64,000 nt of DNA. It comes from Bauldia sp. (GTDB lineage: Bacteria > Pseudomonadota > Alphaproteobacteria > Rhizobiales > Kaistiaceae). The stretch covers positions 1 through 64,000 of the forward strand of contig JAHCJZ010000010.1 in NCBI GenBank assembly GCA_026126025.1, in the 5' to 3' direction. Under the pieces are notes generated by a model. The model did no database searches and was not told where the DNA came from. It was given only the letters and a program-made list of their open reading frames with translations. Both the position numbers and the translations under genes were made by a program. Shown here piece after piece: positions 42,986 to 64,000 of this stretch (positions within the stretch are counted from its first letter, which is position 1; each line of letters starts with the position of its first letter).

Positions 42986-43510
42986 GTGCGGAAAGTTCAT
43001 CTTCTGGGGGCTGTCATCCTGCTGGCGGGCGTCGGATTTGCCGCTGCACCGGCTCTGACGTTCGATCCGGGGGCCAGGGTCGCACAGAACGACCCCCTTC
43101 ACGGCGGCGGCGCGCCCGCGGCGCCCGCGCCCGCGCCGTCAGACGCGGCAGCGCCGGCGCTCAACGACGGCATCTACACCGCGGAGCAGGCCGAGCGGGC
43201 CTGGGAGCCCTACTTCGCCGAATGCGCGCAGTGCCACGGCAACACGTTGCGCGGCACACCGGGAGGGCCGCGGATCGTCGGCTCGTCGTTCCGCAACAAG
43301 TGGGTGGGGGAGTCGGTGGGCGCCTTCTCCGATTGGGTCCGCGGCAACATGCCGGCGGGTCGCGGCGGCCAGCTGCCGATCCAGGTCTATGCCGATCTGC
43401 TGGCGCTGATCTTCCAGGAGAACGGCTATCCCGCCGGCGATACCGAGTTCGATCCCCTCAACGAGGTTTGGGCGGAGGTGACGTTCACTGATCCGCCGCC
43501 GGCCGAATAG
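42986..43510 (+). CDS. Periplasmic class-I cytochrome c (first of three)
   Basis: A 174-residue protein. The signal is VRKVHLLGAVILLAGVGFAA. An Ala/Pro-rich linker follows, then one heme domain with CAQCH at residues 80-84 and the likely axial Met in RGNMPAGRGG. GTG 42986 follows GGGAG at eight bases. It is the first gene of the rightward quinoprotein series and lies about 180 bases before dehydrogenase 1, with a hairpin between them. By analogy with MxaG/XoxG it should take electrons from the dehydrogenase. It shares the start of its heme domain (TAEQAERAW...) with the cytochrome at 57873. Confidence 0.92.
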   Translation: MRKVHLLGAVILLAGVGFAAAPALTFDPGARVAQNDPLHGGGAPAAPAPAPSDAAAPALNDGIYTAEQAERAWEPYFAECAQCHGNTLRGTPGGPRIVGSSFRNKWVGESVGAFSDWVRGNMPAGRGGQLPIQVYADLLALIFQENGYPAGDTEFDPLNEVWAEVTFTDPPPAE

Positions 43511-43519
43511 GCCGGCCCT

Positions 43520-43547
43520 GCGGCGGGTCAGGAAGGGGGCCCGCCGC
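43520..43547 (+). promoter_or_regulatory. GC-rich hairpin between cytochrome c and dehydrogenase 1
   Basis: The stem GCGGCGGG pairs with CCCGCCGC around a 12-base loop, nine bases after the cytochrome stop. There is no T run, so it is more likely an mRNA stability or attenuation element than a full terminator. Confidence 0.65.
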
Positions 43548-43691
43548 AAAGGACACCCATCCGCAACGGGGTCGGGAGAACCCCGGGGCCGGACCGTGGT
43601 GGGAGGACGCGCGGGGCGGTTTGCCCCACTTCGAGGTGCCGCTGTTGGATGAAGCGCCCTCGCAACCACGCTCGAGGGAGGGCGATCGATA

Positions 43692-45443
43692 ATGAAACTG
43701 CGCCTTCGGAATCTGTTTCTGGCGACAGCCGGGATGGCCGTGCTGGCCGGCCCCGTCCTGGCCCAGAACACCATCGCCGACTATGAGCCGGTGACGGACG
43801 AAATGCTGGCCAATCCGCCGGCCGGCGAGTGGCCGATCTACCGCCGCAATTATCAGGGCTGGGGGTACAGCCCGCTCGACGCCATCACGCCTGACAACGT
43901 CAGCAGCCTGACGCTCGTCTGGTCGCGTGCCCTGGAGTCGGGGAGCAACGAAGACACGCCGCTGATGCATGACGGCGTGATCTTCATCGGTACCACCAAC
44001 GACGTCATCCAGGCGATCGACGCCGCCTCCGGGTCGCTGATCTGGGAGCACCGCCGGACGCTGCCCGACCAGTCGGAGCTCAACGTGATCGGCCAGAACA
44101 AGCGGTCGATCGCGCTCTATGACGACAAGGTCTATTTCATGTCGCAGGACAACTTCGTCGTTGCCCTCGACGCGGCCACAGGCCAGGTGGTCTGGGAATC
44201 CGATCGCGGCGACAGCCCCGACATCACCAACTCCAACGGCCCGATCGTGGTCCAGGGCGTGGTGATCGCGGGCAGCTCGTGCCAGTTCGCCGGCCGCGGC
44301 TGCTACGCGACCGGCCATGACGCCGAGAACGGCGAAGAGCTGTGGCGGCACAACTTCATTCCGGGTCCGGGCGAGCCGGGCGACGAGACCTGGGGCGGCG
44401 CCCCGTTCGAGTCGCGCTGGATGACCGGTTCCTGGGGTGGCTACACCTACGACCCGGTCACCGGCCTCGTCTATTACGGCTCGACCGGCGCCGGCCCCGC
44501 TTCGGAGACGCAGCGCGGTTCGCCGGGCGGCAGCATGGCGGGCACCAACACCCGCTTCGCCGTCAACCCGCTGACCGGCGATATCGTGTGGCAGCACCAG
44601 GTCCTGCCGCGCGACAACTGGGACCAGGAGTGCACCTATGAGGGCATCATCGTCGATACGCCGGTGAACCCGAACCCGAATGCCGACGGCATGCTCGCGG
44701 TCGGCAACGTGTCGGGCGAAACCCGCCGCGTCGTGACGGGCGTTCCCTGCAAGACCGGTGTCGCCTGGACCTTCGATGCCGCCACGGGCGAGTTCCTGTG
44801 GGCCAAGGAGACGACGGAACAGAACCTCATCGCCTCCATCGACACTGCCGGCATGGTCTCGGTCAACGAGGACGTCATCCTTGAAGTGGTCGGCCAGACC
44901 TACTTCATGTGCCCGACCTTCCTCGGCGGTCGCGACTGGCCGCCGGCTGCCTACAGCCCGGAGACCAACGCGTTCTACGTCCCGCTGAACAACTGGTGCA
45001 CCAACATCAGCGCCAACGAGGACGAGCCGACGCCGGCGGACGTGTACAACACGACCGACGAGCAGGTGATCGCGCCGGGCCACGAGAATGTCGGCCGCAT
45101 CGACGCGATCTCCGTCGAGACCGGCGACACGCTGTGGAGCTGGGAGACCCGGAACGGCCTGTACGCTCCGGTGCTGGCCACCGGCGGCGGTCTGCTCTTC
45201 GTGGGCGGCATGGACCGTCACTTCCGCGCCATCGACATGGCGAGCGGCACCACGGTGTGGGAGACCCGCCTGCCGTCGTCGGTCGGCGGCCACCCGACAT
45301 CGTTCGAGGTCGACGGGCGTCAGATGATCGCCATCACTTCGGGCGGTGCGCTGGTCGGCGCATTCGCCGAGGGGCTTGACGACAGCCCCGACCGCGTCTC
45401 CGGCAACAACGCGCTTTTCGTGTTCGCGTTGCCCGGCAACTAG
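43692..45443 (+). CDS. PQQ-dependent dehydrogenase 1 (eight-bladed quinoprotein, divergent type)
   Basis: A 583-residue periplasmic protein with signal MKLRLRNLFLATAGMAVLAG (cleavage near LAQ/N). The quinoprotein blade repeats are clear: WGYSPLDAITPDNVSSLTLV, IQAIDAASGSLIWEHRRTL, VALDAATGQVVWESDRG, IDAISVETGDTLWSWETRNG and FRAIDMASGTTVWETRLPSS. LPRDNWDQECTYEG is the counterpart of the methanol dehydrogenase HDEWDYAG region, and PCKTGVAWTFD carries a Lys at the PQQ-contact position. Between blades it has STGAGPASETQRGSPGG, unlike the three paralogues. It lacks the adjacent Cys-Cys of MxaF. It has extra cysteines (SSCQFAGRGCYAT, ECTYE, PCKTG, MCPTF, NWCTN). GGGAGGG is about eight bases before the ATG. 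Substrate unknown; probably an alcohol or aldehyde. Confidence 0.9.
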   Translation: MKLRLRNLFLATAGMAVLAGPVLAQNTIADYEPVTDEMLANPPAGEWPIYRRNYQGWGYSPLDAITPDNVSSLTLVWSRALESGSNEDTPLMHDGVIFIGTTNDVIQAIDAASGSLIWEHRRTLPDQSELNVIGQNKRSIALYDDKVYFMSQDNFVVALDAATGQVVWESDRGDSPDITNSNGPIVVQGVVIAGSSCQFAGRGCYATGHDAENGEELWRHNFIPGPGEPGDETWGGAPFESRWMTGSWGGYTYDPVTGLVYYGSTGAGPASETQRGSPGGSMAGTNTRFAVNPLTGDIVWQHQVLPRDNWDQECTYEGIIVDTPVNPNPNADGMLAVGNVSGETRRVVTGVPCKTGVAWTFDAATGEFLWAKETTEQNLIASIDTAGMVSVNEDVILEVVGQTYFMCPTFLGGRDWPPAAYSPETNAFYVPLNNWCTNISANEDEPTPADVYNTTDEQVIAPGHENVGRIDAISVETGDTLWSWETRNGLYAPVLATGGGLLFVGGMDRHFRAIDMASGTTVWETRLPSSVGGHPTSFEVDGRQMIAITSGGALVGAFAEGLDDSPDRVSGNNALFVFALPGN

Positions 45444-45452
45444 ACCCAGTCA

Positions 45453-45484
45453 GCGGGGGCCGGCGGCACATCGCCGGCCTCCGC
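45453..45484 (+). promoter_or_regulatory. Hairpin at the dehydrogenase 1 / binding protein 1 junction
   Basis: A 13-bp stem (one G-T pair), GCGGGGGCCGGCG with CGCCGGCCTCCGC, around a six-base loop, nine bases after the dehydrogenase stop. No T run follows. Confidence 0.75.
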
Positions 45485-45510
45485 TTCCCCTAGCCGAACC
45501 AACAAGAAGA

Positions 45511-46404
45511 ATGACCTTCGGAAGCGTCCCGCGGATCGGTCGGGATCCGCATCGGCTGGCAGCCTTGGTCGGAGCGGTCCTGCTCGCCGTCACCCTCGGC
45601 GCCGATGCCGCCATCGCCCAGCGCGGCGGGGGCGGCGCTCCCGCGCCGTTGCCCCGCAACTTCTACGAAGACCGCCTCAGCCGCCAGGGCGACAAGATCA
45701 TCTTCTGCGTCAACCAGGACGCCATGATGGCCGATTTCGAGCGCGACCTTGCGCGGCTCATCGGCGAGGTGCTGCTGGTCGAGGTCGAAATCTACGATGT
45801 CGATCCGCCGCTTCCCACCATCCCGCTCGACTACCGCCTGCCGTTGCTGCCGGAGCAGATATTCCTCGTCCTGATCGACGACTGCGACGCGATGTTCGGC
45901 TTCGCGCTCGCCGGAAGCTATCGCGACTGGATCACGCTCAGCCGGCCCTATCTCGACACGCGCATGGTGCTCGTCGTCGCCGATCCGGCGATCGCCGGCT
46001 TCACGGACATCCCGCGCGACGGCGCGGTGGGGACGCGTGCGATGAGCAATGGCGACATCGCGCTGATCACCTACCTCCAGGCGCTGCCGGCCAGCAATCG
46101 CTGGCAGCGCATCGGCTATTTCACCAACGAGATCCTTCTCGAGCGCCTGCGCGACGGCACCGTCGGCGGCGCGGTGATGTGGGAGCCGGCGGTCCATTTC
46201 GCGACTGAAGGTGACCCCGCATCCGCCGGACTTCGCATCCTGCCGCTGCCCTTCGTGCCGCGCCCGACGCAGCTCGGCCTCGCGATGCTGGCCGAGGACC
46301 TGTTCCTGCGGACCGCGCTCGACGAGGCGATCGCCGTGCTCGTCGCCGACGGGGCGGTCGAGGCGCTCGCCGTGGAGCACCACCTGCGGCCGGTGCCGCA
46401 ATGA
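45511..46404 (+). CDS. MxaJ/XoxJ-like periplasmic binding protein 1
   Basis: A 297-residue protein with a signal region (LAALVGAVLLAVTLGADAAI, cleavage near AIAQ). It has the shared pattern of the quinoprotein-associated binding proteins: IIFCVNQDAMMADFERDLAR, LVLIDDCDAMFGFALAG, DWITLSRPYLDT, DIPRDGAVG and VGGAVMWEPAVHF. The two cysteines (FCVN and DDCDA) are the likely disulfide. Known relatives (MxaJ, XoxJ) bind the dehydrogenase and may help its activation instead of importing a solute. It has no transporter partner here. ATG 45511 has only a weak A/G-rich ribosome site, which may limit its level relative to the dehydrogenase. Confidence 0.88.
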   Translation: MTFGSVPRIGRDPHRLAALVGAVLLAVTLGADAAIAQRGGGGAPAPLPRNFYEDRLSRQGDKIIFCVNQDAMMADFERDLARLIGEVLLVEVEIYDVDPPLPTIPLDYRLPLLPEQIFLVLIDDCDAMFGFALAGSYRDWITLSRPYLDTRMVLVVADPAIAGFTDIPRDGAVGTRAMSNGDIALITYLQALPASNRWQRIGYFTNEILLERLRDGTVGGAVMWEPAVHFATEGDPASAGLRILPLPFVPRPTQLGLAMLAEDLFLRTALDEAIAVLVADGAVEALAVEHHLRPVPQ

Positions 46405-46438
46405 CAATCGCAATCCGCATTCCGGGAGACGCCACGCC

Positions 46439-47935
46439 ATGACTGCCGCGACTTTCGACGGTCTCGCCCTTCCGTCCGCGCTGCCGCTCCTGTCGGAGCG
46501 CCTGATCCAGTCCACCCGCCGCGCGACATTGTCGGGCTTCGTCCTTGCAGGCGCGATCGCGGTCTCGGCGGCTTGCGTCGTCTATGGCATCGCGCAGCTC
46601 GCGATCGGCTTCGGCGCAACCATCGCGGCTGATGGCCTATGGTTCGCGATCGGCGCGGGAGCAGCGGGTTTCGTCGTCGCGGCGGTTGCCGTTTTCGCGA
46701 CGCGTCGGTCGTCCTTCGACCTTGCCCGCGATGCCGATCGCGTCTTCGCGCTCCGCGAGCGCATGTCGACGGCGCTGCAGGTGAGCCGTGGCCGTCACGG
46801 GGCGTCTGCGGTCGGCACGGCGCTGCTCCGCGACGCCGAGGCCGAGGCCGCGGCGATAGATCCGCGGCGTCTTGCGCCGCTCCGGCCGGATCGCGTGGCG
46901 CTCATCCTCGCCGGCGCGATCGCCTTTCTCGCTCTGGCCCTTGTCGTGAAGGCGATCGCCTATGACGAGCCGGGGACCGCGCCGGTGGCGACGGCACTTC
47001 CGGCCGCACTCTCGACCGAGGATCAGGCCGAGGTCGCGCAGCAGCTGATGCGGGTCGCGGCCCTGATTGCCGACGACGCCGAAGAGCGCTCCGATCCGTT
47101 CCTCCAGGCCATCGCGCGCGAAGTTGCCGCGCTCGGCCAGCGGATCGAATCGGGCGCGGTTGTCGAACGCTCGGAGATCGTCGCCGAGCTCGACCGTCTC
47201 GCCAACTACGCCGGCGACGCCTATGTCGCGGCCGGCGAGACCATCGGCGGCGCGGAGGATCTGTCGCAGCTTCTCGAGGCGGTGGGGCTGTCGCTGGAGC
47301 CGCAGACGCCGCGTCCGATCGAGCAGACCGCGGCCGGAGCCGACGGTCCCGCTCCGCCGCCCGACGACGTGTCGCTGCCGCCGAACCTGCCGCAACAGCC
47401 GCCGCTCAACGCGCCCGCCCTCGACGAGATGCTGGCCGAGTTCGAGGCGGCGGATGCGGCGAGCGACGCGGCGCGGATCGAGCGCGGTGAGCGCCAGCTG
47501 CCCGACGGCTACTTCGGCGGCGACTACTACGCGATTGCCGCGCAGCAGGCCGCTGAGGCGGCCGCCCGGCGCCAGGCCGAAGGGGCGCTGCCCGACGGCG
47601 CGATGCTGGCCGGCGCGGCCGAAGAGGCCGGAGCAGGCGACAGCCGGCTCGCCGGCGAGGGCGTCGGCGCGCTCGACGGCGAGATCACCGAGAACGATCC
47701 CTTCGCCATGGCTGGCGAACTGCTCCTCCAGGACGAGATCGACGGCGAGGGCCGCCGCATCCGCGTCGAGGTGCCGCCGCAGCAGGGTGAGCCGGTCGTG
47801 CTCGTTCCCGGCGAGATCGTCGCTGGCGACTGGCGGCCGATGGCCGAAAGCGAGGTCTCGCGCGCCGGGATCCCGCCCGCCGACCGCGACGCCGTCGCGC
47901 GCTACTTCCGCTCGATCGCCGAGGCCGCCGAGTGA
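46439..47935 (+). CDS. Three-helix membrane protein of the vWA/MoxR maturation module
   Basis: A 498-residue protein I cannot assign to a named family. Three helices are predicted: about residues 30-58 (LSGFVLAGAIAVSAACVVYG), 66-88 (WFAIGAGAAGFVVAAVAVFA) and 150-172 (LILAGAIAFLALALVVKAIA). The rest is acidic, Ala/Glu/Gln-rich and probably periplasmic or cytoplasmic, with low-complexity stretches (AIAAQQAAEAAARRQAEGAL). Its stop overlaps the start of the vWA gene (GTGA), so the two are coupled. In position and topology it could play the part of MxaK or MxaA in the methanol dehydrogenase system; that is inference. SBP 1 lies 34 bases upstream. Confidence 0.75.
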   Translation: MTAATFDGLALPSALPLLSERLIQSTRRATLSGFVLAGAIAVSAACVVYGIAQLAIGFGATIAADGLWFAIGAGAAGFVVAAVAVFATRRSSFDLARDADRVFALRERMSTALQVSRGRHGASAVGTALLRDAEAEAAAIDPRRLAPLRPDRVALILAGAIAFLALALVVKAIAYDEPGTAPVATALPAALSTEDQAEVAQQLMRVAALIADDAEERSDPFLQAIAREVAALGQRIESGAVVERSEIVAELDRLANYAGDAYVAAGETIGGAEDLSQLLEAVGLSLEPQTPRPIEQTAAGADGPAPPPDDVSLPPNLPQQPPLNAPALDEMLAEFEAADAASDAARIERGERQLPDGYFGGDYYAIAAQQAAEAAARRQAEGALPDGAMLAGAAEEAGAGDSRLAGEGVGALDGEITENDPFAMAGELLLQDEIDGEGRRIRVEVPPQQGEPVVLVPGEIVAGDWRPMAESEVSRAGIPPADRDAVARYFRSIAEAAE

Positions 47936-50900
47936 CCTTCCTTTCGCCGGCCTGGCTCGTCGTCGCCGCCCTCGCGGTCCCGATCATCCTCCTCCACGCG
48001 CGGCTGCGCCGCCGCGTCGAGGTCGCGAGCGTCCACATCTGGCGGCTGATCGGCCTCGCTGCCGACCGCCGGCGCTCGCTCCAGCGCCCTCCGGTCGGAC
48101 TCCTCCTCGTCCTGCAGCTGATCGCGCTGTTCGCTCTCGCCGTCGCACTGGCGCAGCCGCGCTTCGGCGCCGCCGCAGGCGAGGGCGAGCACGTCGTCTT
48201 CCTCGTCGACGCCTCGGGCAGCATGCAGGCGACCGACATCGCGCCGTCGCGTTTCGATGCCGCGCGCGATGCCGTTGCCGACGCCGTGCGCACCCTCGGG
48301 CCCGGCGCGGCGCGCATCTCGGTGGTCGAGGTCGGGAGCAATGCGCGCGTCGCGGTCGCCCGGCAGGCCGATGCCGGCGGCATCCTCCCCCTCCTCGACG
48401 CGCTGGCGCCGACGGATGGGCCGGCAGACTGGGCGGGCGCGTCGGCGCTGGTCGAGTCGCTCCTGCGCGCCGGCGAGACCACGCGGCTCGTTGTCGTCGG
48501 CGACGACCCGGCCAGCGCCACGCTCGGCGACGGTGATGTGGAAGTGATCGCGCTCGGCGCGGCCGACACCGGCAACCGCGCCCTTTCGGCGACGCTGTCG
48601 GCCGAGGCGGACGGCGATCTCGTCGTCGCCGGCACGGTCCGGTTCTTCGGCACCGAGACGGCGGCAACCGAGATTGCCGTGCGCTTCGGGCCGGGCGGCG
48701 ACGAGAGCCTCCTCGATTTCGGCACCATCGCCGTCGCTCCGCCCGAAATCGGCGAAGGCGAGGCATTGCCGGAGGCGTTGCGGTTCGAGGCCGGGCTCGA
48801 GCTTCCCGGCGAGGGGACGCTGGTCCTGGAGATCGGCCCCGATGCCGGGCCGCACGACAACGCGTCCTATTTCCATGTAGGTGCGCTCGACCGGGTCGCC
48901 CGCATCCTCGTGGTCGGCGGGCCGAGCGAGGCACTTCTTCGCGCGCTCGCGGCGGTCGACGGCGTCGAGGTGTTCCAGGTCGATGCGCTGCCGGCCAATG
49001 CCGACGGATACGATCTCGTGGTGGTCGACGACGTCGCGATCGCGCGCAAGCCGGCGACGAACGTCCTGTGGGTCGAGCGCGGGCGGCTCGCCGACGAGAC
49101 GGAGCCCCAGCCGATCCTCGACGCCTATTTCACCGGGTGGGACGCGACCCACCCGCTATCCTCCGGCGTCGACTGGAACGCGGTGACGACGCCGCGGGCG
49201 TTTGCGGTGCCAAGCCTCCCCGGCGCGACGGTTGTCGTGGAATCCTCGGGCAATCCGCTGGTCCAGGCGCGCACCACGCCTGCGGGCCGCGAAGTGCGGC
49301 TCGCGCTCGCCGCCGACGCGTCCGGCTGGCTCAACGACCCGAGCTACCCGCTCTTCATCGCAGCGGTGATCGACTGGCTCGACATCGCAACCGGTCCGGC
49401 CGATCCGGCACCCTGCATCGTGGGCGTATGGTGCGTGCTTCCGGCGAGCCTCGTTGCCGCGTCGATCGTGGCACCCGACGGGGAGGTTCTGCCGTCGACC
49501 GCTCCGGCCGATGCGGCGTGGCTCGCCGCCGGCACCGATGCCGGGTTCCTTCCGGCCCGCGCCGGCTTCTACCGCGTCGCCGGCGCCGCGGGCGAGGTGA
49601 TCGTCGCGGTCAACCGCGCGGATGATGCCGACGGGAACCTCGCCATCGCCGCGTCCGCCGGCGAGGCTCCGGCCTTCGCCGCCGGTTCCTCCCGGCCGTG
49701 GTGGCTGCTGGCGATCGTGCTCGTCGTCCTTGCTGCCGAGACCTGGTTCGCCGGCCGCGGCTCCGAGCGCTTCCTGCGGCCCGGCGCGCTGCGCCGCGGC
49801 GTTCCCTTCGCGACGCAGCGGCGCTGGCATCTCGGCCTTCGCATCGCTGCGGGCGTGGCACTGGTGCTCGCCATCGTCCCGCTCGTCGTGCCGACGCGGG
49901 AGCCGGCCTCGGCCACCGTCGTCGTCGCAGCGGAGGCGGTTACCGACGGCCGCCAGGATCTCGCGCGGAGCATGCTCCTCGCCACCATCGACGAAAATCG
50001 CGACGGATCGGCGGGCCGGATCGGGCTCGTCGCCGCCGCGGCGCCGCCGGCGGTCGCCGTCGACCTCGGGGAAAGCGGGGCGGCGTCGGGCGCACCGATG
50101 TTGGCGCCGGGCGCCGATATCGGCGATGCGGTGGCGCTCGCAGTGGCAATGCTCCCGGCGGATCGTCCCGGCCGGGTGGTCGTCGCCGGCGACGGCAACA
50201 TGACGGCGGGGAACCTCGGCGCCGGCATCTCCGCGGCGGTCGCGCGCTCCGTGCCGCTCGACACCGTCCCGCTGGTCGATGCTCCGGTCGGCGAGGTGCT
50301 CGTCGCTTCGGTCGACGCGCCGGCCACGGCCTATGTCGGCGACCGCTTCACCGTGAACGCCTTCGTTCACAGCGAAGGCCCCGCCGAAGCCACGATCGAG
50401 CTGATGCGGAACGGCGCGGTGGTGTCCACCCAGCTGGTGCCGCTCGCCCTCGGCACGAACCGCATCGAGGCGGTGTTCGACGTCGCCGAGGCCGGGGATG
50501 CCCTCTTCGAGGTCGCGGTCGACGCGCCCTCCGACGTGATCGCCGCGAACAACCGCGACGGCGTCGTGGTGAGGGCGGAGGCACCGCCGCGCATCCTCAT
50601 CGTGACGCCCGAGGTCGACTGGGGCGACTTCTTCGCCGGCGCCCTCGCGGTCCAGGGCCTCACGGCCGAGGTCGTCCTCCCCGACGACGCGCCGTTCTTC
50701 ATCAGCGGCTTCCTCGAATACGACCTCGTCGTCCTGATGAACGTCCCCGCCATCGATCTCAGCGTCGGCCAGCAGCGGCTGATCGCCGACTATGTCGAGA
50801 CCCATGGCGGCGGCCTCCTCATTCTCGGCGGCGAGCGCAGCTTCGGGCCGGGCGGCTATTTCCAGACCGACCTCGAGCGGGTGTCGCCGCTGTCGGCGCG

Positions 50901-52328: not shown

Positions 52329-53468
52329 ATGATGGACACGCCCCAAAGCGACCGTCTCGTTCACCGCCTCTATGATGCTGCGTTGGGCCGCAGCGAGTGG
52401 ACCGTCACGATGCAGGCGCTGGCGGCAACCTTCGCGGCCCGGATCGCGGTGATCCATACCTTCCCGCAATGCCAGGCGAACCGGTACTTCGCCACGCCGG
52501 AATTCGAGCCGGTGGTGGAGGACTGGTTCTCGTCCGACTGGCGCGAGAACGATCCGCGCGTCCGGGCGATCCGCGGCCTTCGCCAGCGCGGTGGCCGCCA
52601 GACGGTGACCGACGAGACGGTACGCCGGTATGACCCCGGCACGCTGGGACATTTCCGCCGCGGCTTCCTGGACCGGCACGCGCTCGGCGATTTCGCCGCG
52701 ACGCTGGTGGAGCTTGGCCGCGACGGCGGCTGCGGGGTGCTGGCATTCATTCGCGACAGGGAAGCCCCCGACTTCTCGCGTCATGACCTCACCCGCATGA
52801 TGGCGATCCGCGGCCATGTCGAGGCGAGCCTTCACCTTGCGGAGCATGTCCTCGGCGTTGCGGACGATGCGAGCGCGTGGCTGCGAGCCCTCGAAGAGGC
52901 GGGGACCGCGGCGGTCTTCCTCACCGGCAAGGGGCGCGTCGTCGCCGTCAGTACGCCGGCGAAGCGGCTGTTCGCCGATGACCTGCGCGTCGACAAGGAC
53001 AGGCTCGTCAGCCGGTCGCCGGTTGCCCAGGCGCGGATCGAGCGTCTCGTCGCCTGCCGCGAAGGGGTAACGACGGTGCCGCGCGCCATCGGACGGCGTC
53101 CGCTGCTCGTGCGCGCAGTTCCGGTGAGCGGCCTCGCGCCGGCCAATGGCTGGGTATTCAGCCAAAACCGCATCGAGATCATCCTCATCCTGGTCGCGAT
53201 CGATCCGCGCGTTGACCATCGCGCCGGCGCAGAAGCGCTGGGCCATCTCGGCCTGTCGCCGGCGGAGGCGCGTGTCGCTGCGCTGGTCGGGGCCGGCGCA
53301 TCCGCTGCCAAAGCGGCGGAGCGCCTCGAGCTCACCGAGGCGACCGTGCGATCCTATCTCAAGCGAGTCTACGCCAAGCTCGAGATCTCCGGACGGGCCG
53401 AGCTTGGCCTGCTGTCGAGCAAGATCCGGAGCCTTTACGACCTCGACGTGCATCGCGAGCCGTCGTGA
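52329..53468 (+). CDS. LuxR-family transcriptional regulator
   Basis: A 379-residue protein. The N-terminal 290 or so residues are a sensing region with no standard domain that I recognise. Near the end is a LuxR/GerE helix-turn-helix: LGLSPAEARVAALVGAGASA, then AKAAERLELTEATVRSYLKR and VYAKLEISGRAEL. This N-terminal plan is common in alphaproteobacterial orphan LuxR proteins. It lies 38 bases after the vWA gene and about 165 before dehydrogenase 2, so it is the best candidate for local control of the quinoprotein genes. ATG 52329 follows GAGG closely. Confidence 0.9.
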   Translation: MMDTPQSDRLVHRLYDAALGRSEWTVTMQALAATFAARIAVIHTFPQCQANRYFATPEFEPVVEDWFSSDWRENDPRVRAIRGLRQRGGRQTVTDETVRRYDPGTLGHFRRGFLDRHALGDFAATLVELGRDGGCGVLAFIRDREAPDFSRHDLTRMMAIRGHVEASLHLAEHVLGVADDASAWLRALEEAGTAAVFLTGKGRVVAVSTPAKRLFADDLRVDKDRLVSRSPVAQARIERLVACREGVTTVPRAIGRRPLLVRAVPVSGLAPANGWVFSQNRIEIILILVAIDPRVDHRAGAEALGHLGLSPAEARVAALVGAGASAAKAAERLELTEATVRSYLKRVYAKLEISGRAELGLLSSKIRSLYDLDVHREPS

Positions 53469-55367: not shown

Positions 55368-55378
55368 AGCGCAACAGC

Positions 55379-55410
55379 GGGTGGAGGCGTCGGCGCAGTC
55401 GCCTCCACCC
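55379..55410 (+). promoter_or_regulatory. Hairpin at the dehydrogenase 2 / binding protein 2 junction
   Basis: An 11-bp perfect stem, GGGTGGAGGCG with CGCCTCCACCC, around a ten-base loop, 11 bases after the dehydrogenase stop. It has no T run and the next gene starts 35 bases later. Confidence 0.78.
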
Positions 55411-55445
55411 ATTCTCCAACATTCCAGCACCGCTGCCGGTCGGAC

Positions 55446-56285
55446 ATGGTGAAAATCAGGCGTGGCATCGGGCTCTCATTCGCTCTCGCCGCTCTCGTGA
55501 TCGACGCCGCGTTTGCCCAGGGAGGCATCCGCCTCGCACCGCAGGATTTCCTGCAGCCGGGCCTGCGCTCGGGACCGGTCCGCTTCTGCATCAACACCGC
55601 CAGCATCCTGGCCGACTTCGATCGGGCGGTCGCGGATCTGATCGCCGAGACGATGCTGGTCGAGTCGACTCTGCATGACATCGTCGATCCTTATCTTCGG
55701 CCCAGTCCGTACGACTATCGCATCATCCGCAGCAGCCCCGACTTCTATGTCGACGTCATCAACGACTGCGACGCGGTGATGGGCTACCCCCTGCCCGACG
55801 GCACGGTGCCGAACTGGCTCACCGTCAGCCGGCCCTACTACACGTCCAGCGTCGTGCTGGTTGCGACCGACGAGTCCTTTCGCCGGCTTGGCGACATCCC
55901 CCACGACCGCCCGATCGGCGGGCGCATCCGCGACGACACGCTGTTCCGCGCGTACCTCACCACGCTGCCGCAGGGCCGGTCGTGGCGGCTCGTGCCGTAT
56001 CTCCACAACAACCTCCTCCTCGAAGCCGTGATCGAAGGATCGGTCGCGGCCGCTGTCGTTTGGGAGCCGGCGTCCGCCTTCTATCTTGCGCTGGAGGGCC
56101 AGTCCGCGCCGCCGATGCATGTCGTCGAGGTTCCCGTCGACTTGAAGACGGTCGAGCTCGCGGTCGCCTTTCGCGCCGGCGACGCGTTCCTGCGCTCCGC
56201 CATCGACGCCGCCATCGACGAGCTCGCGGCTGACGGACTGCTCCGGCAGCTGGCGGCCGAGTTCGCCCTGCCGGCACCCCCCTAG
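55446..56285 (+). CDS. MxaJ/XoxJ-like periplasmic binding protein 2
   Basis: A 279-residue protein. The signal is MVKIRRGIGLSFALAALVID with AFAQ/G. Conserved family features: VRFCINTASILADFDRAVAD (Cys 48), VINDCDAVMGYPLPDG (Cys 108), NWLTVSRPYYTSSVVLVA, DIPHDRPIGG and AAAVVWEPASAFYLA, the last corresponding to the VWGP motif of XoxJ-type proteins. It follows dehydrogenase 2 and precedes cytochrome 2 by 33 bases, so the order is dehydrogenase-J-G, as in mxaFJG and xoxFJG operons. Confidence 0.9.
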   Translation: MVKIRRGIGLSFALAALVIDAAFAQGGIRLAPQDFLQPGLRSGPVRFCINTASILADFDRAVADLIAETMLVESTLHDIVDPYLRPSPYDYRIIRSSPDFYVDVINDCDAVMGYPLPDGTVPNWLTVSRPYYTSSVVLVATDESFRRLGDIPHDRPIGGRIRDDTLFRAYLTTLPQGRSWRLVPYLHNNLLLEAVIEGSVAAAVVWEPASAFYLALEGQSAPPMHVVEVPVDLKTVELAVAFRAGDAFLRSAIDAAIDELAADGLLRQLAAEFALPAPP

Positions 56286-57536: not shown

Positions 57537-57872
57537 TGTGGGCCTCGCTTGCTGTGAATGCGAACCAGCAAGGCCCGCTAGTTACCGATTTCTTTTCTAT
57601 TAGACTCATAAAATGACCGATCGAATCAAGCCGGGTCGTCCCGACACGCACCCAAATCGTTTCGAACTCAAGCACTTGTGAGTCCGATTGGCGGCCGCGC
57701 CGCGCGTTTTCGCGCGCGTCCCTGTTTGACCATTCGTGGAAATCCATTACCGTGGGTGGACCGGAATGAACTTGGGCTTCCGGTGAGAGGCAGAGCCCGT
57801 GTGTCGGGTTCAGCATCCTTTCACCCCGCGGGCGCGCAGGCGCTTGCGGTCATCGAGCACAGGATGAGGTTG
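57537..57872. other. Divergent promoter region, no gene seen
   Basis: A 336-base gap between the S2P-like gene (leftward) and cytochrome 3 (rightward). The part at 57580-57680 is A+T-rich compared with everything around it (for example gatttcttttctattagact) and should hold one or both promoters. I find no ORF with a ribosome site. Confidence 0.5.
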
Positions 57873-58397
57873 ATGAAGCTCAAAGGCGTTCCCGGATGGG
57901 CGAAGCTCGCCCTGATCGTTCCCGCGCTTGGCGCCATGACCGGCATTGCGGTCGCGCAGATGGGCGCGAACGAACCGGCCATGGATGCGGACGAGCCGGC
58001 CATGGAGGCGGAGGACCCGGCCATGGAGGCCGCCGCCGGCGAGATGGTCAGCATTCAGGTGGGCGTCTACACCGAAGAGCAGGCCGAACGCGGCCTCGCG
58101 ACGTTCATGTCGCGCGGCTGCAATGGCTGTCACGGCAACGAGATGCAGGGCTCGCCCGGCGGTCCGACGCTGAAGGGCTTCCTCTTCAACTTCCATTGGG
58201 GCGACAAGCCTGCAACGGAAGTCATGGCGTTCATGCAGGCGAACATGCCGCCCGGCGCCGCCGGCAGCCTCACCGACCAGGCTTATACGGACATCCTCGC
58301 CGCCATCTTCCACGCCAACGGCTATCCCGTCGGCGACGACGAGCTCGTCTACGAGGAGCTTGCGAACATCCTCGTCGAGAACGCGCCCCAGGAATAG
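57873..58397 (+). CDS. Periplasmic class-I cytochrome c (third of three)
   Basis: A 174-residue protein. The signal is MKLKGVPGWAKLALIVPALG then IAVAQ. An acidic linker with three near repeats of EPAM(D/E)A follows. The heme motif is CNGCH at residues 83-87, and the axial Met lies in QANMPPGAAGSL. ATG 57873 has AGGA eight bases upstream (57864 is an alternative). It lies about 225 bases before dehydrogenase 3. YTEEQAERGL at the start of its heme domain matches cytochrome 1 (YTAEQAERAW), so the two are paralogues. Confidence 0.9.
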   Translation: MKLKGVPGWAKLALIVPALGAMTGIAVAQMGANEPAMDADEPAMEAEDPAMEAAAGEMVSIQVGVYTEEQAERGLATFMSRGCNGCHGNEMQGSPGGPTLKGFLFNFHWGDKPATEVMAFMQANMPPGAAGSLTDQAYTDILAAIFHANGYPVGDDELVYEELANILVENAPQE

Positions 58398-58413
58398 GCC
58401 CCGCTTCGCGGCG

Positions 58414-58622: not shown

Positions 58623-60356
58623 ATGAGATCCTTGAAGACATTACTGCTGGGCGGCGTATCGCTGGCGGTGCTCACTGCGCCGGCGCTTGCCCAGAGCGAT
58701 CCGTTTGCCGGCTTCGTTCCGGTCACCGACGAGATGATCCAGAACCCCGATGACGAGGACTGGATCTCCTGGCGACGCACGGTCAACAACTGGGGCTACA
58801 GCCCGCTCGACCAGATCAATCGCGACAATGCCGGATCGCTGACCCATGTCTGGTCCCGTTCGATGGAGGACGGCTTCCAGGAGGCGACGCCCGTCGTCTA
58901 TGACGGCATCATGTTCCTGCCGCATCCCAACGATGTCGTGCAGGCGCTCGACGCCACGACCGGCGACCTCCTTTGGGAATACCGCCGCCAGCTGCCGGAC
59001 GACGTCGGCGGCATCATGGCGACCCGCGGTCTCGGCCTCTGGCAGGATCGCGTCATCCTGATGTCGAAGGACAACGTCATGGTCGCGCTCGACGCGACCA
59101 GCGGCGAGGTCATCTGGGAAACCGCGGTCCGCGCCCCGGACGGCGGCATCCAGACCTCGACGGTGACGGTCGCCAACGGCGTCGCGGTGTCGGGTCGCAG
59201 CTGCTTCACCGCGGAGAACTGCTTCGTCGCCGCGCATGACCTCGAGACCGGCGAGGAGCTGTGGCGGTTCTACACGCTGCCGCAGGAGGGCCAGCCCGGA
59301 TCCGAGACCTGGGGCGACGTGCCGATGGAAGCCCGCCGCCATGTCGGCAGCTGGGCCGCCGCGCCGGCCTTCGATCCCGAGCTCAACATGATCTACATCG
59401 GGACGTCGGTGACGAACCCCTATCCGAAGTTCTTCTTCGCCGACATCGAGGACATCGACAACGAGTTCCTCTACCAGACCTCGACGCTGGCCCTGAACGC
59501 GGAAACCGGCGAGCTGGTGTGGTACCAGCAGCACATCCGCGACCAGTGGGATCTCGACCACCCGTTCGAGCGCATCATTCTCGACACGGCGATTGCCCCG
59601 AACCCGGACGAGGTTCGCTGGATCAATCCGAACGTGACGCCCGGCGAGGAGCGCCAGGTCCTGACCGGCATCCCGGGCAAGACCGGCATCTTCTATTCGA
59701 TCGACCGCCTCACGGGCGAGTTCCTGTGGGCAAGGGAGACGACATACCAGAACGTCGTCCTCGACATCGACCCGTCAAACGGACGTGCGACGATGAACGC
59801 CGAGCTGTTCCCGACCGAGACCGGACAGCAGTTCCTGGTTTGCCCGGCGGCAGGCGGCGGCAAGGACTGGATGGCCGGCGCCTACAGCCCGGACACCAAC
59901 GCGATCTACTATCCGCTGCAGAACTTCTGCATGGATTCGGTCGTGACGGACACCGACATCGAGCTCACGCCGTTCGTCATGGCACCCGGCGAAGAGAATG
60001 CCGGCACCATCCAGGCGGTCAGCGTCGAGACCGGCGAACTGCTGTGGAAGTTCGAGACCCGCGCCGCGGCGATGTCGTCGGTGCTGGCGACCGGTGGCGG
60101 CCTGATCTTCCAGGGTGACTACAACCGTCGCTTCCGCGCCCTCGACGACACCACCGGCGAGGTGCTGTGGGAGACGATCGTCGCCTCGCAGGTCGGCGGC
60201 TACCCGATCAGCTACGCGGTCGATGGACGCCAGTATGTCGCCATCCCGGTCGGCGCGACGCTGATCTCGGGCGGCTACTACGCCCCGGTCACGCCGGAGC
60301 TGCGTCCCGGCAGCTCGGGCAACAGCATCTACGTGTTCGCCCTGCCGGAGAGCTGA
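58623..60356 (+). CDS. PQQ-dependent dehydrogenase 3
   Basis: A 577-residue periplasmic quinoprotein with a perfect AAGGAGG before the ATG. The signal is MRSLKTLLLGGVSLAVLTAP then ALAQ/S. Blades include WGYSPLDQINRDNAGSLTHV, VQALDATTGDLLWEYRRQLP, VALDATSGEVIWETAVR, LNAETGELVWYQQHIRDQWD and FRALDDTTGEVLWETIVAS. Features in common with dehydrogenase 4: GTSVTNPYPKFFFADIED, QHIRDQWDLDHPFERIILDT, GIPGKTGIFYSIDR and LWARETTYQNV. The Cys pair is SGRSCFTAENCFVA. There is no adjacent Cys-Cys. Dehydrogenases 3 and 4 are the closest pair, evidently a tandem duplication. Confidence 0.92.
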   Translation: MRSLKTLLLGGVSLAVLTAPALAQSDPFAGFVPVTDEMIQNPDDEDWISWRRTVNNWGYSPLDQINRDNAGSLTHVWSRSMEDGFQEATPVVYDGIMFLPHPNDVVQALDATTGDLLWEYRRQLPDDVGGIMATRGLGLWQDRVILMSKDNVMVALDATSGEVIWETAVRAPDGGIQTSTVTVANGVAVSGRSCFTAENCFVAAHDLETGEELWRFYTLPQEGQPGSETWGDVPMEARRHVGSWAAAPAFDPELNMIYIGTSVTNPYPKFFFADIEDIDNEFLYQTSTLALNAETGELVWYQQHIRDQWDLDHPFERIILDTAIAPNPDEVRWINPNVTPGEERQVLTGIPGKTGIFYSIDRLTGEFLWARETTYQNVVLDIDPSNGRATMNAELFPTETGQQFLVCPAAGGGKDWMAGAYSPDTNAIYYPLQNFCMDSVVTDTDIELTPFVMAPGEENAGTIQAVSVETGELLWKFETRAAAMSSVLATGGGLIFQGDYNRRFRALDDTTGEVLWETIVASQVGGYPISYAVDGRQYVAIPVGATLISGGYYAPVTPELRPGSSGNSIYVFALPES

Positions 60357-60382
60357 TCGCTCGTCGGCATTCCGCAAGCATC

Positions 60383-60411
60383 GGTACGGCGGGGCTCAGC
60401 CTCGCCGTACC
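60383..60411 (+). promoter_or_regulatory. Hairpin at the dehydrogenase 3 / binding protein 3 junction
   Basis: GGTACGGCG pairs with CGCCGTACC, with an inner GGCT/AGCC extension, so nearly the whole 29 bases are paired. It starts 27 bases after the dehydrogenase stop. No T run. Confidence 0.78.
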
Positions 60412-60434
60412 CGACTCCGGAGGGATCCCGGGAG

Positions 60435-61310
60435 GTGAAACCGTCGCCCGTCTTGAGGGTCGCGATGGCAGGCGTCGTCGCGCTGGGCGCGATGGCGGCG
60501 TCGGCGCCGGCTGCTGCGCAGGACGTACCCGGCCGCAACGTGCGCGACGCGGTGCCCGACGGCTTCCTCGACTTCACCCGGCGCACCGACGGCCGCATCC
60601 ATTTCTGCCTCAACATGGCGAGCGCGATCGTCGAGTACGACCGCGCGGTGGCCGAGGCAATTGCGGACTCGCTGCTCGTGCCGCCGAACTTCTTCGAGAT
60701 CATCGACCCCTATATGTCGCCCTACCCGTTCGACTACCGGTTCACGGTCGGCGCGCTAAACCTTTTCGTGGGCGTCAGCAATGAGTGCGACGCGCTGATG
60801 GGGTATCTGCTGCCGGCCTACGGCACGCCGCCGGAATGGCTCACCGTGACGCGGCCCTATCTGATCGCGCCGACCGTTTTCGCCGTCGCCGACCCGGCCT
60901 ATCGGCGCCTCGAGGACATCCCGCCCGGCATGCGGATCGGCACCGGCCTCGGCGAGCCCGGGGACGCGACCTTCCGCACCTACAACAACACCCGCCCGGC
61001 AAGCGCGCGATGGCGGCGCGCGGTGACACCCAGCCCGGGCGACCTCGTGAACGGTCTTCTTTCCGGCGAATACGCCGGCATCCTGATCTGGGAGCCCGGG
61101 CTCCATCTCGCGCTGGGCGGCGATCCCCCGGAGGCCGGGGTCAGCCTCGCTTCGACGCCTTTCAGCGTGCCCCCCCTTCAGTTCTCCGTCGCCCTGCCCG
61201 CCGCCGGCGCGTATGTGCGCGGGCTTCTCGACCAGGCGATCACGGCGCTGGAGGCCGACGGGACGCTCCGCGCGCTCGCGATCGAGCACGGCATCGCGTC
61301 CGCCGATTGA
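60435..61310 (+). CDS. MxaJ/XoxJ-like periplasmic binding protein 3
   Basis: About 291 residues. The signal is VKPSPVLRVAMAGVVALGAM with PAAAQ/D if the GTG at 60435 is used; ATG 60465, with GAGGG five bases before it, is an alternative but gives a signal peptide without its basic start. Family features: IHFCLNMASAIVEYDRAVAE, VSNECDALMGYLLPAYG, EWLTVTRPYLIAPTVFAVA, DIPPGMRIG and AGILIWEPGLHLALGG. It follows dehydrogenase 3 and precedes dehydrogenase 4. Spacing to the latter is about 155 bases. Confidence 0.88.
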   Translation: MKPSPVLRVAMAGVVALGAMAASAPAAAQDVPGRNVRDAVPDGFLDFTRRTDGRIHFCLNMASAIVEYDRAVAEAIADSLLVPPNFFEIIDPYMSPYPFDYRFTVGALNLFVGVSNECDALMGYLLPAYGTPPEWLTVTRPYLIAPTVFAVADPAYRRLEDIPPGMRIGTGLGEPGDATFRTYNNTRPASARWRRAVTPSPGDLVNGLLSGEYAGILIWEPGLHLALGGDPPEAGVSLASTPFSVPPLQFSVALPAAGAYVRGLLDQAITALEADGTLRALAIEHGIASAD

Positions 61311-61464
61311 GCTTGCACGGGAGGCGCCTCGGTCAGGACGCGAGATGGAACGAACCGGCCGGGCGTCGAGTCCGGTCGAGCTTGGTCAAAGGGCCGGCAA
61401 CAGGCTCGCCGCTGGAAGGAGCGGGTCACCGGCTGGGAGGGCTTCAACAAGGAGGTTCCAGGAA

Positions 61465-63207
61465 ATGAGACACCTGAAAGCACTGTTGTTGGGCTCGGTC
61501 TCGATTGCCATCATGGCGGGATCGGCCGCGGCGCAGGACGATCCGTTCGCCAGCTTCACGCCGGTGACCGACGAGATGCTGCAGAACCCGCCGGCGGAAG
61601 ACTGGCTGTCGTGGCGCGCGACGCTCAACCACTGGGGCTATAGCCCGCTCGACCAGATCAATCGCGACAATGTCGATGACATCGAGATGGTGTGGTCGCG
61701 TGCGATCACCGAAGGCTTCGTCGAGGGCGCGCCGCTCGTCCATGACGGCGTGATGTTCGTGCCGCATCCCGCGGACGTCATCCAGGCCCTCGACGCCACC
61801 AATGGCGACCTGCTGTGGGAGTATCGGCGCGAGCTGCCCGACGATGTCCCCGCGATCATCGTCACCCGCGGTCTTGCGATATGGGAGAACCTCATTCTCC
61901 TCCAGTCGAAGGACAATTTCCTGGTTGCCCTCGACGCCACGACCGGCCAGCTGGTCTGGGAGACCCAGATCCGCAGCCCGGACAACTGGTCATGGTCGAC
62001 CCAGGGTCCCATCATCGCCAACGGCAAGGCGATCAGCGGCCGCAGCTGTTCGCAGCAGAACGGCCCCGGCGGGGCCGAGGGTTGCTTCCTCACCGCCCAC
62101 GACCTTGCCACCGGCGAGGAGCTCTGGCGCTTCTACACCATCCCGCAGCAGGGCCAGCCCGGTTCCGAAACGTGGGGTGATGCGCCTTACGAGACCTGGC
62201 ATCACGTCGGCAGCTGGCTTACGCCGAGCTTCGACCCCGAGCTGAACCTCGTCTATTTCGGGACATCGGTGACCTCGCCTTACGCGAAGTTCTACTTCGC
62301 GGAGCCGGACGAGCTCGACAACGAGTTCCTCTATCAGACCTCGACCCTCGCGATCGACGCCGATACCGGCGAGCTCGTCTGGTACCAGCAGCACATCCGC
62401 GACCAGTGGGATCTCGACCACCCGTTCGAGCGCATCCTGGTCGACACGGTGATTGCTCCGAATCCGGATGAGGTCCGCTGGATCAACCCGAACGTCACAC
62501 CGGGCGAAGAGCGCCAGGTCCTGACCGGCATTCCGGGCAAGACCGGCATCTTCTATTCGATCGACCGCGCCACCGGCGAGTTCCTGTGGGCGAGGGAGAC
62601 GACCTACCAGAACGTGATCTCGGACATCGATCTGACCACGGGGCGCGCCACGCACCCCATCGAGACGATCCCCACCGAGATCGGCCAGCAGATCTTCATC
62701 TGCCCGGCGGCGAATGGCGGCAAGGGATGGCATCAGGGGGCGTTCAGCCCGCTGACCAACACCATCTACTATCCGCTGCATAATTCCTGCATGAACACGC
62801 TGACGACCGACACCGATATCCAGCTCAACCCGCGCGAGATTTCGCCCGGCGAGGACCATCTGGGCAACGTGTTCGCCGTCAATGTGGAGACCGGCGAGAC
62901 CGAGTGGGTGTTCGAGACCCGGGCGGCCCATGGCAGCCTGGTCACGACCGGCGGCGGTCTCATCTTCGGCGGCGATCTCAACCGGCGCTTCCATGCCCTC
63001 GACCAGGAGACCGGCGAGGTGCTGTGGGAGGTCGTGCTGAGCTCGCCCGTCAACGGCACGCCGATCAGCTACGCCGTGGACGGCCGGCAGTACGTCGCGG
63101 TCTCGGTCGGCGGCGCGCTCAACAGCGCCGGCCTGCTCGGGCAGACGCCTGAGCTTCGCCCCGGCACGGGCGGCAACACGCTCTACGTGTTCGCCCTCGA
63201 CGAATAG
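61465..63207 (+). CDS. PQQ-dependent dehydrogenase 4
   Basis: A 580-residue periplasmic quinoprotein. The signal is MRHLKALLLGSVSIAIMAGS with AAAQ/D. ATG 61465 is preceded by GGAGG and AGGA. Blades: WGYSPLDQINRDNVDDIEMV, IQALDATNGDLLWEYRREL, VALDATTGQLVWETQIRSP, IDADTGELVWYQQHIRDQWD and FHALDQETGEVLWEVVLSS. Shared active-region features: GTSVTSPYAKFYFAEPDE, DQWDLDHPFERILVDT, GIPGKTGIFYSIDRATGEFL and FICPAANGGKGW. The Cys pair SGRSC...EGCFLT has a longer loop than in the paralogues. Most similar to dehydrogenase 3. Substrate unknown. Confidence 0.92.
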   Translation: MRHLKALLLGSVSIAIMAGSAAAQDDPFASFTPVTDEMLQNPPAEDWLSWRATLNHWGYSPLDQINRDNVDDIEMVWSRAITEGFVEGAPLVHDGVMFVPHPADVIQALDATNGDLLWEYRRELPDDVPAIIVTRGLAIWENLILLQSKDNFLVALDATTGQLVWETQIRSPDNWSWSTQGPIIANGKAISGRSCSQQNGPGGAEGCFLTAHDLATGEELWRFYTIPQQGQPGSETWGDAPYETWHHVGSWLTPSFDPELNLVYFGTSVTSPYAKFYFAEPDELDNEFLYQTSTLAIDADTGELVWYQQHIRDQWDLDHPFERILVDTVIAPNPDEVRWINPNVTPGEERQVLTGIPGKTGIFYSIDRATGEFLWARETTYQNVISDIDLTTGRATHPIETIPTEIGQQIFICPAANGGKGWHQGAFSPLTNTIYYPLHNSCMNTLTTDTDIQLNPREISPGEDHLGNVFAVNVETGETEWVFETRAAHGSLVTTGGGLIFGGDLNRRFHALDQETGEVLWEVVLSSPVNGTPISYAVDGRQYVAVSVGGALNSAGLLGQTPELRPGTGGNTLYVFALDE

Positions 63208-63215
63208 GACCACGC

Positions 63216-63247
63216 GCGTCGCGTCCGATCCCTCCCGGACGCGACGC
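63216..63247 (+). promoter_or_regulatory. Hairpin at the dehydrogenase 4 / binding protein 4 junction
   Basis: A 12-bp perfect stem, GCGTCGCGTCCG with CGGACGCGACGC, around an eight-base loop, eight bases after the dehydrogenase stop. The tail is C-rich, not T-rich. Confidence 0.8.
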
Positions 63248-63310
63248 CCCCTTCACCAAGAGGTACGCCGGCCGCGGGCCGGCGTGCCGGTTTCGCGCCG
63301 GAGTGTCGCC

Positions 63311-64000
63311 ATGGGCTTGCCCGATCGGAAGTGCCGGCGCCGGAGCAGCATCCGCGCGATCCTTGTCGCGACGGCGGCCGCGATGGCAGCGCCGCCGACC
63401 TTTGCCCAGGTCGGCGCCGATGTGCCGAGCGAGTTCCTCGACTTCTCGCGGCGCTCCGGCGACCGCATCCGCTTCTGCATCAACATGGCGAGCGTCACCG
63501 CGCCGTTCGACCGGGCGGTGGCGCAGGCGATTGCCGACAGCGTCCTCCTCGAGCCCGACATCTATGAGGTCACGGACCTCGATCCCCCGCGCCCGCTCGA
63601 CTACCGGTTCACTCTGGAGGAGATCGAGCTCTACATCGTGGTCAACAACGAGTGCGACGCGCTGATGGGCTATCCGCTCCCGCAGGTCGGCGCCGTGCCC
63701 GACTGGCTGACGGTCACCCGGCCCTATCACCTCACCGGCGTTGCCTTCGTCGTCGGTAGTCGCGGGCGCACGCTTCGCGATCTTCCGCCCGGCGCCGCTA
63801 TCGGCTCGCGGGTCGGCGCGACCGAGACCATGTTGCTGCGCGGCTTCCTCGACTCGGCAGGGTCGACGTGGCGATGGCGGGCATTCTCTGCGAATGATCG
63901 GCTGGTCGAGGACGCGGTCGACGGCGTCGTCGCCGCGGCATTCGTGTGGGAGCCGGCGCTGATGCTTGCCACCGGAGGCGACCCCGCGGCCAGCGGCCTC
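63311..64000 (+). CDS. MxaJ/XoxJ-like periplasmic binding protein 4 (cut by the window edge)
   Basis: An open frame of 230 codons from ATG 63311 to the end of the window with no stop. It opens MGLPDRKCRRRSSIRAILVA, with a basic n-region, a hydrophobic core and likely cleavage after TFAQ. Family features match proteins 1-3: IRFCINMASVTAPFDRAVAQ, VVNNECDALMGYPLPQVG, DWLTVTRPYHLTGVAFVV, DLPPGAAIGSRVGATETMLL and AAAFVWEPALMLATGGDPA. About 50-60 residues should be missing at the C terminus. It follows dehydrogenase 4 across a hairpin, and the series may continue to the right. Confidence 0.88.
   Translation, partial: MGLPDRKCRRRSSIRAILVATAAAMAAPPTFAQVGADVPSEFLDFSRRSGDRIRFCINMASVTAPFDRAVAQAIADSVLLEPDIYEVTDLDPPRPLDYRFTLEEIELYIVVNNECDALMGYPLPQVGAVPDWLTVTRPYHLTGVAFVVGSRGRTLRDLPPGAAIGSRVGATETMLLRGFLDSAGSTWRWRAFSANDRLVEDAVDGVVAAAFVWEPALMLATGGDPAASGL

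Follow-up and report, generated by a model that had tools for sequence, protein, structure and literature searches.

MxaJ and XoxJ are thought to bind the partly folded apo-enzyme and to aid the insertion of pyrroloquinoline quinone (PQQ) and metal (review PMC12997753). The present analysis deals with a tandem array of quinoprotein dehydrogenases (DH) and their binding-protein partners (J), numbered in array order, in the genome of Bauldia sp. (assembly GCA_026126025.1; Rhizobiales, Kaistiaceae), a single draft genome of 3.2 Mb (completeness 99.6%, contamination 0.15%). The window, i.e. the whole 64,000-nucleotide stretch analysed, is the first 64 kb of the 129,685-base contig JAHCJZ010000010.1 (C2). 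The reading that we favour, with reasonable but far from full confidence, is that the J proteins are client-specific assembly helpers which were co-duplicated with their dehydrogenases in a multiplied operon module, probably devoted to sugar or polyol oxidation of the lanthanide type.

The array shares with the mxa and xox operons (F-J-G plus R-S-A-C-K-L) the DH-J gene order as well as cytochrome c, MoxR, DUF58 and VWA genes. Unlike these operons, it encodes dehydrogenases of another clade that lack the vicinal cysteine pair (Cys-Cys), no small-subunit gene was identified, its J proteins score far under the MoxJ cut-offs, and many DH-J units are present per maturation set. In the Pseudomonas ped cluster (PedG) and at exaF of M. 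extorquens, a J-type periplasmic-binding protein (PBP) also adjoins a PQQ alcohol dehydrogenase, with a cytochrome and, nearby, ATP-binding cassette (ABC) transporter genes (PMC12997753), but these J-like proteins are single copies as described and lie outside the sorbose dehydrogenase clade. The P. saccharoketogenes alcohol dehydrogenase (4CVB), the K. vulgare sorbose dehydrogenase (4MH1) and Devosia DepA (7WMD) have the fold, the clade and the absence of a vicinal Cys-Cys in common with the array dehydrogenases. Only DH1 shares the WDxEC motif of this group; unlike the group, DH2 to DH7 stand in tandem and form a separate subclade with a D-x-D motif (a second Asp two residues past the catalytic Asp). 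The K. vulgare sorbose dehydrogenase locus that was read, unlike the array pairs, has no adjacent J gene. Large PQQ dehydrogenase expansions, as seen here, are also known from marine genomes, which encode dozens of lanthanide-type enzymes and up to 70 PQQ dehydrogenases each, but in Acidobacteria and UBA9145 rather than in Rhizobiales (Voutsinos et al. 2025, PMC11996626); XoxJ does not occur in the main text of that paper and no co-duplicated J partners are reported there. A search for literature on Bauldia or Kaistiaceae together with PQQ found nothing.

Array layout and DH-J pairing

Four dehydrogenase genes and four J genes are present in the window as intact open reading frames (ORFs) on the forward strand, always in the order DH then J, with intergenic gaps of 67-103 nt, and further genes of the array lie past the window edge:

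43692..45443, forward strand: DH1, quinoprotein dehydrogenase, motif WDQEC (D-x-E); 794 bits with 4cvb, groups with 4cvb and DepA
45511..46404, forward strand: J1; J profile 442 bits
53634..55367, forward strand: DH2, motif WDLDH (D-x-D); assigned by profile, motif and tree
55446..56285, forward strand: J2; J profile 413 bits; TIGR03871 33.6 bits against a cut-off of 212
58623..60356, forward strand: DH3, motif WDLDH (D-x-D); AlphaFold2 model with a predicted local distance difference test score (pLDDT) of 87; best PDB fold 4cvb, template modelling (TM) score 0.90
60435..61310, forward strand: J3; AlphaFold2 pLDDT 91; type-II PBP fold, MxaJ 5sv6 among the matches
61465..63207, forward strand: DH4, motif WDLDH (D-x-D); assigned by profile and motif
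63311..64168 (window part 63311..64000), forward strand: J4; assigned by J profile
64436-66196, past the window edge: DH5
66455-67276, past the window edge: J5
67519-69267, past the window edge: DH6
69605-71365, past the window edge: DH7

The original prediction, of four PQQ-propeller genes each followed on the same strand by a gene with FC-[IVL]-N, (D/E)CDA and WEP motifs, is confirmed for all four pairs, and so are the three small cytochromes c, each with a single CxxCH. It had also supposed that the array might be larger past the right edge: DH5, J5, DH6 and DH7 indeed follow, the array ends at a tRNA-Arg, and in total seven DH, five J and three cytochromes c are encoded within 28 kb. Profile scores are far above chance (DH 928-1139 bits, J 413-460 bits). 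The suggested tandem duplication of sets 3 and 4 agrees with the 68% identity between DH3 and DH4; identities within DH3-DH7 range from 66 to 87%, the highest being that of DH5 with DH7 (87%), and DH2 (~55%) and DH1 (~44%) are more distant from the remaining array dehydrogenases. The J copies of the array are 32-47% identical to each other. One more DH-J pair is encoded on a separate contig (C42). No sign of a foreign island was seen, the G+C content being 0.68 in the array and 0.69 around it.

The array was read to its end, and no intact J was found beside DH6 or DH7. The stretch between J5 and DH6 holds 22 residues left from a DH C-terminus (C2:67324-67389; 86% identical to DH5), and the one between DH6 and DH7 holds the remnant of a J C-terminus (C2:69351-69419; 67% across 18 residues, E 2e-4 within this gap). 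Because these C-terminal relics sit inside the array, it probably once held at least eight DH and six J. Birth and death of DH and J units are thus visible in the array.

Genome searches with the J profile gave strong matches only in the genus of the window, a sister genus, a metagenome-assembled genome deposited as Devosia sp. and a minority of the other genomes of the order; the class, order and phylum searches scored six candidates per genome, and J counts outside the close relatives are therefore lower bounds. In 36/36 strong J loci read in the order (26 in the first five genomes, 10 in additional ones), the J gene follows immediately on the 3' side of a sorbose-clade DH (in one, the DH is cut by the contig end). 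In the Bauldia genome, J stands beside 6/8 DH of the clade and beside 0/~43 other PQQ enzymes (Fisher p 2e-6), and a role of J as a generic partner of all PQQ enzymes is ruled out by this absence. The DH-J order beside ABC genes was also found in Paracoccus aminophilus pAMI5 and in Deinococcus aetherius. Ketogulonicigenium vulgare, a species employed in making vitamin C, has a J-like gene, annotated as encoding a hypothetical protein, directly upstream of a D-x-D DH, in the order J-DH (L141:7929-10408).

Across 28 DH-J pairs, the DH tree and the J tree agree with each other (Mantel r 0.86, 19/25 splits in common). When J labels were permuted within genomes, r reached at most 0.72 and at most 9 splits were shared, none of 5000 permutations attaining the observed r. 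The parallel trees proposed as a sign of co-duplicated pairs were therefore clearly recovered, and the best reading of these comparisons is that DH and J co-duplicated and diverged in step. Co-divergence could instead reflect shared location and inheritance only, with J an interchangeable helper and the DH copies giving dosage. Shared history is the default for linked genes, DH6 and DH7 are intact after the loss of J, and one maturation set serves all array copies, all of which fit this explanation; but distinct J copies are kept intact in the array despite their low pairwise identity, and the pairing holds over deep clades and dispersed loci. Linkage by itself leaves unexplained why nearly every DH has a separate J in spite of wide J divergence. 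Since linkage alone can yield parallel trees, this explanation is only weakened; we consider it unlikely, though it keeps some weight.

Dehydrogenase clade and metal site

Compared with all PDB chains, DH3 scored 413-433 bits with 4cvb, 4mh1, 22vi, 9m2c and 7wmd and at most 198 bits with other PQQ enzymes, and 4cvb was also the top fold match of its model. In a maximum-likelihood tree (quick search, with Shimodaira-Hasegawa-like approximate likelihood ratio test (SH-aLRT) support only), the array dehydrogenases and their relatives formed one clade (SH-aLRT 99) with sorbose dehydrogenase, the P. saccharoketogenes alcohol dehydrogenase and DepA. DH1 grouped with 4cvb and DepA (SH-aLRT 93), and DH2 to DH7 with the C42 copy formed a subclade sister to the DH1 group (SH-aLRT 97 for both together). 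By these sequence criteria, the array dehydrogenases belong to the sorbose/alcohol dehydrogenase clade, DH2 to DH7 being a sister subclade outside its characterised D-x-E core. One row of the tree, from a Sinorhizobium meliloti plasmid, was presumed to be XoxF; its metal motif is unlike that of XoxF and the label was used for no conclusion.

The comparison with the F-J-G sets of methanol dehydrogenases, made in the original prediction, does not hold. Indeed, a vicinal Cys-Cys near PQQ is absent from all seven array dehydrogenases, while a control Deinococcus DH has it there (SCCDVV); all remain under the cut-off of 480 bits of the NCBIfam model for methanol/ethanol PQQ dehydrogenases (TIGR03075), at 312-336 bits; and together with the tree position these results rule out a methanol dehydrogenase identity. 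A single-substrate clade for all DH is not supported either, DH1 standing among non-single-substrate enzymes and DH2 to DH7 in a subclade of their own. DepA is described as broad in substrate (PMC10975547). The genome encodes its own PQQ synthesis (pqqE, 604 bits).

DH1 has the metal motif WDQEC (D-x-E); DH2 to DH7 (WDLDH) and the C42 copy have D-x-D. Among the 28 DH-J pairs, D-x-E is confined to the 4cvb subclade and all others have D-x-D; because D-x-D occurs in all other clades and D-x-E in one nested subclade, the D-x-E state looks derived within a D-x-D family. D-x-D is counted as a direct indicator of lanthanide binding in XoxF and in alcohol dehydrogenase type 2b, and a D-x-D sorbose dehydrogenase group was proposed to be lanthanide-dependent from sequences and models, and in the model the two Asp residues lie at the metal (PMC11996626). 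PQQ and Ca were supplied in the assays of four K. vulgare enzymes that share 55-58% identity with DepA (PMC10301637). By analogy with its characterised relatives, DH1 probably uses Ca, and DH2 to DH7, to judge by their motif, probably use a lanthanide. On metal alone, DH2 to DH7 could also be Ca enzymes, D-x-D being no lanthanide site in this fold: Ca was used in the assays of the characterised D-x-E relatives, and membrane glucose dehydrogenase, although its motif is D-x-D, binds Ca, Mg, Zn or Sr (PMC11996626). The use of D-x-D as an indicator in other families, the sorbose dehydrogenase model and the restriction of D-x-E to one nested subclade argue against this alternative, to which we give a minor share of credence. 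A lanthanide-specific J is ruled out as a general rule, because D-x-E enzymes also carry J.

This 3.2 Mb genome encodes about 43 more PQQ dehydrogenases that do not belong to the array clade, frequently several in a row, on contigs C1, C4, C11, C12, C23, C34, C41, C43, C44 and C45 (e.g. loci L023, L025, L027 and L032). The ones sampled group in a sister clade of their own, and no J, VWA or MoxR gene adjoins them. The metal motif was read in 41 of them and is D-x-D in 26/41 and E-x-D in 15/41 (EWD, EHD, EKD, EAD); in E-x-D the catalytic Asp is replaced by Glu and the lanthanide Asp is kept (e.g. L023:5256-7241, L027:6089-8188 and L028:7941-9701).

The J proteins and their proposed role

No J protein matched a Pfam or NCBIfam model above any cut-off. 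The cut-offs of TIGR03870 and TIGR03871 were missed by all J, with weak matches for 11/26 (best E 3e-10); as a control, a XoxJ-type protein encoded by a different genome of the order reached 305 bits with TIGR03871. The J model has a type-II PBP fold; in the fold search MxaJ 5sv6 was retrieved (E 1.7e-11), no better than amino-acid solute-binding proteins (SBPs), which were the top matches. MxaJ and XoxJ were not retrieved by a sequence search of the PDB with the J profile, and structure and profile-profile comparison were therefore used. With hhalign, J aligned with XoxJ (TIGR03871 proteins) at 98.8% probability, both conserved Cys falling in the same columns. Of the J motifs, the two cysteines alone are invariant across the wider J family (..VCADP.. 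and ..CDVIMG.., both kept in 28/28 J aligned), and WEP varies. On these comparisons, J is best regarded as a deep branch of its own within the MxaJ/XoxJ kind: the predicted likeness to MxaJ/XoxJ stands for the fold, the Cys pair and the gene position, but extends to no curated family cut-off.

Another explanation would make the J proteins ordinary SBPs that hand the substrate or product of DH to an importer, the parallel trees then reflecting matched substrate specificity. The type-II PBP fold with its amino-acid-binding top matches, and the nearby ABC ATPase, permease and additional SBP, are in line with it. J adjoins DH in all 36 cases, whereas ABC genes are near some loci only; the ABC genes come with an SBP of their own and with an ABC-2 permease, which is of the exporter type; and the XoxJ-type Cys pair is retained in every J aligned. 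An association of J with ordinary importers, considered in the original prediction, is thus unsupported, and we hold this explanation to be improbable.

Under the client-specific reading, the region would be a multiplied operon module oxidising sugars, polyols or similar alcohols in the periplasm. Each unit would consist of a PQQ dehydrogenase of the sorbose/alcohol clade and a dedicated J, the electrons would pass to c-type cytochromes, and a single MxaR/S/C/L-like maturation gene set would serve all units. J, a PBP fold retired from import, would recognise its own partly folded DH and help PQQ and metal in, as for MxaJ/XoxJ. With such a client-specific fit, DH and J would duplicate and diverge together, and each pair could move to new substrates or metals while keeping its helper.

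Several points weigh against this proposal. The chaperone role of J is drawn by analogy with MxaJ/XoxJ; J misses every MoxJ cut-off; and amino-acid-binding proteins score level with MxaJ in the J fold search. Recombinant K. vulgare enzymes of the D-x-E clade were active when PQQ and Ca were supplied but J was not (PMC10301637), and J is therefore not strictly required in vitro. Furthermore, DH6 and DH7 have been retained although no intact J accompanies them, parallel trees can arise without physical partnership, and D-x-D predicts, but does not prove, lanthanide use.

DH-J junctions and surrounding module

Within the array, DH stop codons are immediately followed by a long G+C stem (z -3.2 to -4.4), in the window as follows:

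45444..45510, forward strand: hairpin DH1-J1; -32.5 kcal/mol, z -3.7
55368..55445, forward strand: hairpin DH2-J2; z -3.4
60357..60434, forward strand: hairpin DH3-J3; z -3.2
63208..63310, forward strand: hairpins DH4-J4; z -4.0

A hairpin with z < -2 was found in 23/25 DH-J pairs of five genomes, and DH-J junctions had a mean z of -3.4, compared with -0.8 for 73 control junctions between co-directional genes (p 6e-9). Its position is conserved among pairs and its sequence is not, which suggests a conserved structure at the DH-J junction. The hairpin would protect DH mRNA and lower J output, so that DH mRNA would exceed J mRNA, as fits a catalytic helper.

The genes around the DH-J pairs in the window are the following:

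37692..38567, reverse strand: DUF58 protein (MxaS-like), maturation module; PF01882 94 bits
38564..39619, reverse strand: MoxR-type AAA ATPase (MxaR-like), maturation module; PF07726 198 bits; homologues beside DH-J loci L121 and L129
39706..40524, reverse strand: membrane-anchored type-3 SBP adjoining the ABC-2 genes; PF00497 34 bits; homologues in L122, L130, L137 and L138
40558..41358, reverse strand: ABC-2 permease, DrrB/PedC-like; TIGR01247 160 and TIGR03861 121 bits, both under cut-off
41391..42548, reverse strand: ABC ATPase, DrrA/PQQ_ABC_ATP-like; TIGR01188 295 and TIGR03864 230 bits, under cut-off
42986..43510, forward strand: small cytochrome c 1 (CAQCH)
46439..47935, forward strand: unclassified protein, start chosen; kept 3' of DH-J in L121, L123, L124, L126 and L127
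47932..52290, forward strand: large BatA/VWA protein (MxaC/MxaL-like); PF13519 126 bits, PF07584 28 bits; synteny with the module
52329..53468, forward strand: LuxR-type regulator; PF00196
56319..56867, forward strand: small cytochrome c 2 (CSACH); PF13442 30.7 bits
56925..57536, reverse strand: membrane protein, weakly M50-like; PF02163 E 7e-4, under cut-off
57864..58397, forward strand: small cytochrome c 3 (CNGCH); ORF opens at 57678, start at 57864 probable

Cytochromes c, MoxR, DUF58, the unclassified protein (which has no Pfam or NCBIfam match), a huge BatA/VWA protein and the ABC-2 transporter with its own SBP recur near DH-J loci. The module mirrors mxaF-J-G plus mxaR-S-C-L. By its family scores, the ABC set bears no more than a distant resemblance to the Ped set, the cut-offs for PedA1A2BC-type lanthanide ABC transporters being missed by TIGR03861 (121 against 241 bits) and TIGR03864 (230 against 302 bits); in Pseudomonas, the Ped set serves lanthanide uptake (PMC12997753). 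The membrane-anchored SBP has a Cys pair resembling that of XoxJ, at the XoxJ positions (hhalign 97.6%, lower than J), and the system thus contains two J-like proteins, J itself and this SBP. Small genes similar to that of the weakly M50-like protein are present beside DH-J in L136, L137 and L138, and a 200-aa gene in L142. Directly after the array, on the reverse strand (C2:71811-75272), an ApbE-family protein and a NosR-like protein with two Fer4_5 (4Fe-4S) domains are encoded, a possible electron-transfer link.

In its most complete form, the proposal is that there is a branch of J proteins, each specific to one sorbose-type quinoprotein and co-duplicated up to eight times per genome, which supports lanthanide-dependent sugar/polyol dehydrogenases, the DH:J ratio being set through a conserved intra-operon hairpin; in this full extent it is tentative, and rather less probable than its core. 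The role of MxaJ/XoxJ is still debated, partly because each of the well-studied systems has a single enzyme with a single J. Here, some two dozen linked pairs whose trees agree, together with two array dehydrogenases that have no intact J, form a ready matrix in which client specificity could be probed by swapping. J-type assembly would be extended from methanol/ethanol enzymes to the sorbose dehydrogenase clade, which serves vitamin C manufacture and mycotoxin detoxification. To judge by the motif distribution, the D-x-E enzymes assayed with Ca would seem to form a derived subclade in a putatively lanthanide-dependent D-x-D family, and La or Ce with a J partner may therefore reveal activity in enzymes that seem inactive with Ca alone.

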